38,665 bases of DNA, from the NCBI GenBank assembly GCA_025358645.1, contig JANYIW010000001.1:1-38665 (forward strand). The letters run 5' to 3'. A program made the position numbers and the translations under genes. Within the stretch, counting starts at the first letter, position 1. Every line of letters begins with the position of its first letter. Shown one piece after another: positions 25,595 to 31,419 of this stretch. Source of the stretch: Bacteroidales bacterium. GTDB lineage: Bacteria; Bacteroidota; Bacteroidia; Bacteroidales; VadinHA17. The notes below the pieces were generated by a model. That model saw only the letters and a list, made by a program, of their open reading frames with translations, was not told where the DNA came from and made no database searches.

Positions 25595-25667
25595 ACCCCC
25601 TTTCTTATTTCCCCCAAAGGGGAAATGTTTAGCTCCTTCCCCCTTGGGGGAAGGTTGGGAAGGGGGT
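25595..25667. repeat. Palindromic repeat element, copy 1 (73 bp)
   Basis: The element opens with ACCCCCTTTC and closes with GGGAAGGGGGT, so its ends are inverted. Inside are two more palindromes: ATTTCCCCC/AAAGGGGAAAT (about 25608-25626) and CCTTCCCCC/TTGGGGGAAGG (about 25635-25653). Its reverse complement matches copy 2 at 31350-31419 nearly base for base. It lies in the 248-base region between divergent recG and the methyltransferase gene. A longer reading frame for the methyltransferase that begins inside this element is an artefact. Confidence 0.92.
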
Positions 25668-31349: not shown

Positions 31350-31419
31350 ACCCCCTTCCCATCCTTCCCCCAAGGGGGAAGGTGATCATTTCCCCCTTGG
31401 GGGAAATAAGAAAGGGGGT
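31350..31419. repeat. Palindromic repeat element, copy 2 (70 bp)
   Basis: This is the inverted counterpart of the element at 25595-25667. Reading it forward against the reverse complement of copy 1, the differences I see are one base at position 13, a central spacer of 5 versus 8 bases, and one base in the second palindrome (CCCCCTTGGGGG against CCCCTTTGGGGG). It lies in the 154-base gap between the SurA-like gene and the lipoprotein chaperone gene, inside an otherwise tight operon, so it could fold in the RNA and affect downstream expression. Confidence 0.92.

Follow-up and report, generated by a model that had tools for sequence, protein, structure and literature searches.

The 38,665-nucleotide stretch of DNA analysed in this study (the window), which comes from a Bacteroidales bacterium, contains a short palindromic element that occurs twice in opposite orientations. 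This raises the question of what kind of element it is and by what means it spreads.

Architecture of the palindromic element

Copy A (25595–25667, plus strand; 92.7 bits with the covariance model) has a recG-like gene (minus strand) on one side and a methyltransferase-like ORF (plus strand) on the other. As the first-pass annotation had described, it is 73 bp long and has ACCCCC/GGGGGT ends around two hairpins. Its left outer arm, ACCCCCTT (25595–25602), is a terminal inverted repeat whose partner is the right outer arm, AAGGGGGT (25660–25667). Between them lie the left-half hairpin, TTTCCCCC/AAA/GGGGAAA (25608–25625), and the right-half hairpin, CCTTCCCCC/TT/GGGGGAAGG (25635–25654), all on the plus strand. 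Copy B (31350–31419, minus strand; 70 bp, 90.7 bits) is intergenic, with genes on both sides sharing one strand, and its right-half and left-half hairpins are located at 31363–31382 and 31389–31406 of the minus strand. It had been taken for the reverse complement of copy A with a few differences, and after reverse complementation it indeed equals copy A at 90% identity (E 6.7e-23), the differences lying in the spacer, one hairpin loop, and the GGTTGGG/GGATGGG link.

The element is composed of two inverted half-units, each running from an outer arm (ACCCCCTTYC) through a short link into a C5/G5 hairpin. The outer inverted ends thereby enclose two unlike hairpins, with arms TTTCCCCC/GGGGGAAA on the left and CCTTCCCCC/GGGGGAAGG on the right, in a cloverleaf arrangement. 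The spacers between the hairpins differ among copies in both length and sequence, and the short element ranges from 70 to 86 bp. The single strand is predicted to adopt either a clover or a single long hairpin, and the two window copies fold better than their dinucleotide shuffles (z −2.7 and −4.0). In 55 copies the outer helix is 95.9% paired. Outside the element, the left side is T-rich and the right side A-rich, with peaks near −2, −11, +2, and +12 (54 copies).

Compensatory changes in the stems, which had been proposed as a mark of a structural repeat family, do occur and give weak support. Among the 55 copies, 3 of 25 pairs were changed on both sides with 97.2% of the cells paired (2 of 25 pairs in the own-genome copies), while slid structures gave 1–2 such pairs and some of them exceeded the true structure in covariation score. 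Only 5 of 500 shuffles of the 55-copy alignment had as many double-changed pairs. As the structure is nearly invariant, covariation adds little proof, and we dropped it as structural proof since the variation was too small and the slid structures were nearly equal. Stronger hints of structure come from whole-arm changes that preserve a hairpin, namely one site (L012) where the left arm is swapped for a different hairpin, and the arm added in several copies of the genome G025.

Stable stems and an intergenic location could also befit a transcript-level element, such as a terminator, mRNA stabiliser, or regulator, which is kept by selection and whose copies were spread by gene conversion. We consider this extremely improbable, as no Rfam match was found in the window, the element is T-rich on its left and A-rich on its right with no T run after it, and its presence is patchy even among near relatives. 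A search for intrinsic terminators (GC-rich stem plus T run) gave no site at copy A or copy B.

Copy number and comparison of sites in near relatives

If only the two window copies existed, a repeat family would be unlikely. A covariance model built from 12 own-genome copies, with 150 of the 1441 own-genome candidates scored and opposite-strand matches to one site left out of the count, identified at least 12 full-length copies (75–102 bits) in the genome. At least seven further, weaker sites were found at E≤1e-3, one of which is half of the gene-bearing form described below. Element matches were present in 35 of 60 genomes, the own genome included. Within the genus (36 genomes), the number of matches per genome was strongly variable, from 0 to at least 78, with 70 in G011; these genus counts take in both strands and are thus only rough.

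In G025, eight of the copies (L194, L195, L197–L200, L204, and L205) have the GTT near the right end replaced by an extra TCCCGATRGCTATCGGGA-type hairpin, and such copies occur in several contexts, two larger repeat families included. At L192–L199 and L202–L206 of the same genome, the element is nested in two larger recurring MITE-like repeat families. No empty copy of these larger repeats was found among the 14 matches listed, from which the short tip matches L201 and L207–L212 were left out; all 14 carried or adjoined the element.

Copy-free sites in related strains had also been named as a mark to look for. The closest of the 15 genomes searched over the window region was G017, which is 93–97% identical to the own genome there. 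Ten of the 12 full sites were compared with it, as L031 was split over two contigs and L032 was not queried. Eight of the ten (copies A and B and L023–L028) had no model match in G017 at E≤1, and the other two, L033 and L034, had just a weak, altered palindrome there (23.9 and 20 bits). None of the 10 sites compared was a conserved orthologous position across the genus. The family is thus multicopy, patchy in close relatives, and missing at orthologous sites.

The direction of change appears to differ between sites. Site B has no copy in G017, G019, G026, G031, or G034; the intergene is short in G017, G019, G026, and G034, and is occupied by unrelated filler in G031. This comparison indicates that copy B most probably arose in the own lineage. 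At L024 and L027 the element is present in G026 (87.7 and 55.3 bits) and absent in G017, so the absence in G017 looks like loss. At L026 the insert is flanked by the 10-mer AGTTTAATTA, which is single-copy in G017; a deletion between direct repeats in G017 would look the same. A weaker flanking direct repeat of 7 bases was found at L028. Target-site duplication was therefore clear at one site and weak (about 7 bp) at another, with none clear elsewhere. The inserts carry AT-rich borders which are not common to different copies. By eye, other palindromes were seen to sit in several of these intergenes in other species, and CTTTGCG...CGGTTAA-type and other repeats in the intergenes of A, L028, L033, and L034 in G026 and others.

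Taken together, the copy number, the copy-free sites in near relatives, and the conserved folded architecture agree with the proposal of the first-pass annotation that this is a REP/MITE-like multicopy mobile element.

Association with DUF559 genes

A Pfam scan of the 29 window proteins found no transposase among them, which is what the annotation had stated. It had further suggested a REP-associated tyrosine transposase as the partner, and this suggestion was not supported: PF01797 has no match in the whole own genome. It is also absent from the element-rich G025 and G034. Other element-rich genomes (G003, G010, G011, and G019) do have PF01797 genes, but no element copies at E≤0.1 were found in the 42 loci fetched for PF01797 matches. 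A REP/REPIN system mobilised by a Y1 tyrosine (HUH) transposase would have RAYT group 5 (TnpA-Y1 subclass 2.6) as its candidate in Bacteroidetes. The REPIN-like architecture speaks for such a system, as long-hairpin and clover folds are described for REPINs (PMC3116915). According to PMC6006769, Bacteroidetes genes of subclass 2.6 have atypical flanking structures and this subclass is likewise without a GT[AG]G foot, which by our reading by eye is absent from the hairpins of the element consensus. A Bacteroidetes profile resembling RAYT group 5, the resemblance being judged by size and by motifs taken from PMC6006769, matched 6 of the 36 genus genomes and none of the four richest (G025, G010, G011, and G019). 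Over the 60 genomes, the element showed no association with Y1 (p=0.50) or with RAYT-5 (p=1.0). With no such gene in the own genome, no tracking, and no copies beside PF01797 loci, the RAYT reading is largely refuted and we regard it as very improbable.

A different gene was found together with the element. The own genome has a DUF559 gene (contig C299, 11301–11684, minus strand; PF04480, E 1.2e-35), which is enclosed by two left half-elements over a span of 499 bp. The order half-element, DUF559 gene, half-element was also found in G025 (C34), G034 (C41), and others. In G025 and G034 a right and a left half enclose the gene precisely, so that the whole is a full element with the gene as its spacer. 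This long form shares both ends with the short form, each end comprising the outer inverted arm and a C5/G5 hairpin.

We scanned a genome collection for DUF559 and obtained 60 named loci, which were picked by protein pattern alone. Twelve of them (L303–L314) share 50% or more identity with the query; 11 of these come from Bacteroidales or Bacteroidota MAGs and one from a contig labelled Vermiphilus. All 12 are accompanied by C5 half-elements, which lie on both sides in 11 cases; these two-sided long forms span 499–555 bp in 9 of 11 cases and about 675 bp in the other two. With proximity defined as a score of at least 20 within 300 bp, C5 half-elements adjoin 5 of 5 C5-clade DUF559 genes in one set and 12 of 12 in the other (13 distinct loci, as four are in both). 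For the other DUF559 genes the corresponding numbers are 1 of 22 and 1 of 48, and for background windows 0 of 159. The short and long forms therefore have common ends, and the C5 clade of DUF559 and this repeat family pair specifically.

The locus on the Vermiphilus-labelled contig (L310; 3 kb), which has a C5-clade DUF559 gene with C5 half-elements and whose frame is interrupted by a stop close to where the matched stretch ends, is binned outside Bacteroidota and would represent either horizontal transfer or misbinning. In the own genome we also noticed six full or partial copies of a repeat of about 600 bp (L390, L391, L392, L395, L396, and L397). In the three whose sequences were inspected, a truncated DUF559 frame and its palindromes are nested in an element that has CATAGCCGTCAACTTAAG-like ends and itself lies within other palindromes.

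PF04480 was present in 38 of the 60 genomes. DUF559 and element status agree in 52 of 60 (31 with both, 21 with neither; Fisher p=1.7e-8 when three genomes with weak DUF559 matches are counted as lacking it, and p=2.0e-6 when they are counted as having it), and the Spearman correlation within the genus is 0.61. Element matches are more numerous in those genus genomes that have a C5-clade DUF559 gene (8 vs 28, p=8e-4); for all these statistics, the genomes are related by ancestry and are not independent samples. The exceptions are four genomes with the element and no DUF559 (G004, G006, G007, and G029; G006 has 21 matches and is 81% complete) and four with DUF559 and no element (G005, which has six genes, G047, G052, and G057). 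G011 is element-rich yet has no C5-clade DUF559.

The family is named only DUF559 in Pfam and NCBI. An AlphaFold2 model of the protein from 28 sequences (mean pLDDT 81.2) matched the putative endonuclease-like protein 3hrl of the gonococcus (Z 15.8, rmsd 0.8), the homing endonuclease I-Bth0305I in its catalytic domain (Z 11.7, rmsd 2.2), and Vsr (Z 9.0, rmsd 2.6). Foldseek gave these matches too, and 3hrl and I-Bth0305I were matched also by sequence. In the 28 sequences D64, H81, and D88 are invariant and E35 is conserved in at least 90%; we take these four to be the EDxHD residues. The matches suggest that the DUF559 partner has a Vsr-type (EDxHD) homing-endonuclease fold. PMC12907096 describes a DUF559-domain protein of Caulobacter that resembles Vsr and is linked with the SOS response, which is consistent with DUF559 nuclease activity in cells. 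A PADLOC search gave just weak restriction-enzyme-like and DpdF matches, and two matches to DUF559 (32–37% identical) were found in a phage collection.

While the association of the gene and the repeat is observed directly, we infer from it that the DUF559 nuclease is the mover of the repeat. In the reading that we favour, to which we give a probability of about 0.7, the 70–86 bp element and a DUF559-encoding mobile element of about 500–555 bp are two forms of one element, the shorter being non-autonomous (MITE/REPIN-like). The protein would act in trans on folded single strands or on the palindromic ends, and would cut or nick DNA at the donor or the target. Repair of the break would then copy the element in, by a homing-like copy-in rather than a transposase-type cut-and-paste, and this repair may have left as its footprints the AT-rich borders, which are not conserved, and the short direct repeats found at some sites. 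Since no fixed duplication was seen and the AT-rich borders are variable, break repair fits better than a transposase.

Such an element would resemble several known systems in part. Like REPINs, it is a multicopy inverted pair of palindromes that folds as a long hairpin or clover, and REPINs are thought, according to PMC3116915, to derive from palindromes which once flanked an autonomous gene. It differs in that its associated gene encodes a DUF559 nuclease of predicted Vsr fold where REPINs have a Y1 tyrosine transposase, in that the consensus lacks a GT[AG]G foot, and in that the own genome has no RAYT. Because RAYT is absent and the repeats do not flank RAYT genes, we class them as REPIN-like repeats with a DUF559 nuclease partner. 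Like MITEs with terminal inverted repeats, the short form is non-coding and has ends in common with a longer gene-bearing form, whereas its internal hairpins are conserved, no regular target-site duplication was seen, and no DDE transposase is known for it. The predicted fold of the partner is that of EDxHD/Vsr-like homing endonucleases such as I-Bth0305I, but DUF559 is found here between palindromic repeats and not in an intron or intein. In ISPpu9, an insertion sequence in REPs, a mobile gene is likewise associated with palindromic repeats; the gene-bearing element described here, by contrast, has the repeats as its own ends.

DUF559 genes and palindromic repeats in other bacteria

Among the relatives, 27 DUF559 loci were assessable (30 minus three in long reading frames). 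Inverted-repeat flanks scoring at least 20 were found at 17 of these 27; this score was reached at 5 of the 78 control ORFs and in 59 of the 526 cases with swapped flanks. At the 60 named loci, many of which are related Sphingomonadales, a score of at least 25 was reached by 42 DUF559 genes, as against 2 of the 107 control ORFs taken from these contigs (45 versus 12 at a score of at least 20), and 18 DUF559 genes remained under 25. Swapped flanks reached 25 in 109 of 581 cases, because related genes have a common repeat family. Similarity of proteins and similarity of flanks were correlated (Mantel 0.31; 0 of 2000 permutations as high; 26 loci). The high-scoring loci belong to Bacteroidota, many Sphingomonadales and Caulobacter relatives, planctomycetes, one Verrucomicrobiales MAG, and one Peregrinibacteria MAG, while those of Pseudomonas, Clostridia, and several others scored below 25. 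The pattern thus recurs in other DUF559 clades with other repeat families and in other phyla. Regions of plasmids from Klebsiella, Deinococcus, Sphingomonas, and Sinorhizobium (L403–L406) were inspected visually.

DUF559 domains were also seen inside a protein-coding gene. In G037 (L231), a DUF559 domain and translated palindromes lie in frame within leucyl-tRNA synthetase, at a linker that has three residues in the Thermus sequence. In G054 (L216), a genome of a different family, a DUF559 domain and translated palindromes are likewise in frame in this gene and, by eye, seemingly at the same linker.

The main rival to our reading holds that the palindromes are host or older repeats, that DUF559 is a free-standing homing endonuclease gene which inserts between hairpins, and that the short copies spread otherwise. 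The position of the gene in G025 and G034, precisely within the spacer of an element that is normal apart from it, could be explained in this way, and so could the predicted likeness of DUF559 to homing endonucleases. Palindromes also enclose a different type of element, whose ends are CATAGCCGTCAA. In three species, moreover, DUF559 genes of two clades occupy one intergene: the L220 protein is only 36–38% identical to those of L241 and L242, while the flanking DNA is strongly similar in all three, and such unlike proteins with alike flanks suggest separate arrival in one intergene. Nevertheless, at L217 and its ortholog L308, and at L310 and L311, the gene lies between two left halves and not between a left and a right one, as expected if the halves are ends of the element. 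The same holds for the Alphaproteobacteria, where the DUF559 gene lies between two whole inverted repeats, and the presence of short copies tracks DUF559. We therefore consider insertion of a free-standing gene between existing hairpins to be unlikely, and retain the reading in which the palindromes are the ends of a DUF559 element.

A broader proposal follows the same lines, and we hold it with only slightly more confidence than doubt. A large class of bacterial palindromic repeats, so far unrecognised, may be moved by DUF559 proteins; these would be single-gene mobile elements that spread cloverleaf repeats, in which an EDxHD/Vsr-type nuclease replaces the transposase and each clade has its own repeat family, from Bacteroidota to Alphaproteobacteria and E. 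coli K-12 (ycjD, with CCCTCACCCTAACCCTCTCCC repeats). In the open-access literature, judged by titles and the beginnings of abstracts, no link of DUF559 or PF04480 with palindromic repeats was found, and the open-access literature searched offered no explanation for the spread of C/G-rich palindromic repeats in RAYT-free genomes. The present data tie a widespread DUF559 family to palindromic repeats across several phyla and among strains of E. coli, and the pairing points to a way in which one class of palindromic repeats may spread in bacteria. If the relation is causal, this would be a mobile-element class built on a homing-type nuclease and would give DUF559 a function.

The DUF559 gene of E. 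coli is ycjD, between sapF and fabI. Its layout differs in that the inverted repeat pair is on the 3′ side only, with another palindrome upstream. A 40-base consensus of the ycjD repeat was found in 5358 of 5426 genomes, at 1–32 places per genome (median 17). In a sample of 60 evenly spaced ranked records, of which one plasmid was excluded, the 37 chromosomes with ycjD had 14–28 places (the ycjD place included) and the 22 without a ycjD match had 1–14 (p=2.7e-10), although ycjD presence follows strain lineage, which is confounded with these place counts. In three strains without ycjD that were fetched (L408, L409, and L410), an efflux gene cassette lies after sapF. The question is testable in laboratory strains, as ycjD is carried by BW25113, C600, and BL21, which have 16–17 places (the ycjD place included) in a joint ycjD-plus-repeat search. 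At the frlR–yhfS copy of the repeat no clean empty site was found in E. coli, and many of the listed strains match one side of the query only. Two length variants were compared at this copy, one with an internal deletion in the repeat and the other K-12-like there.
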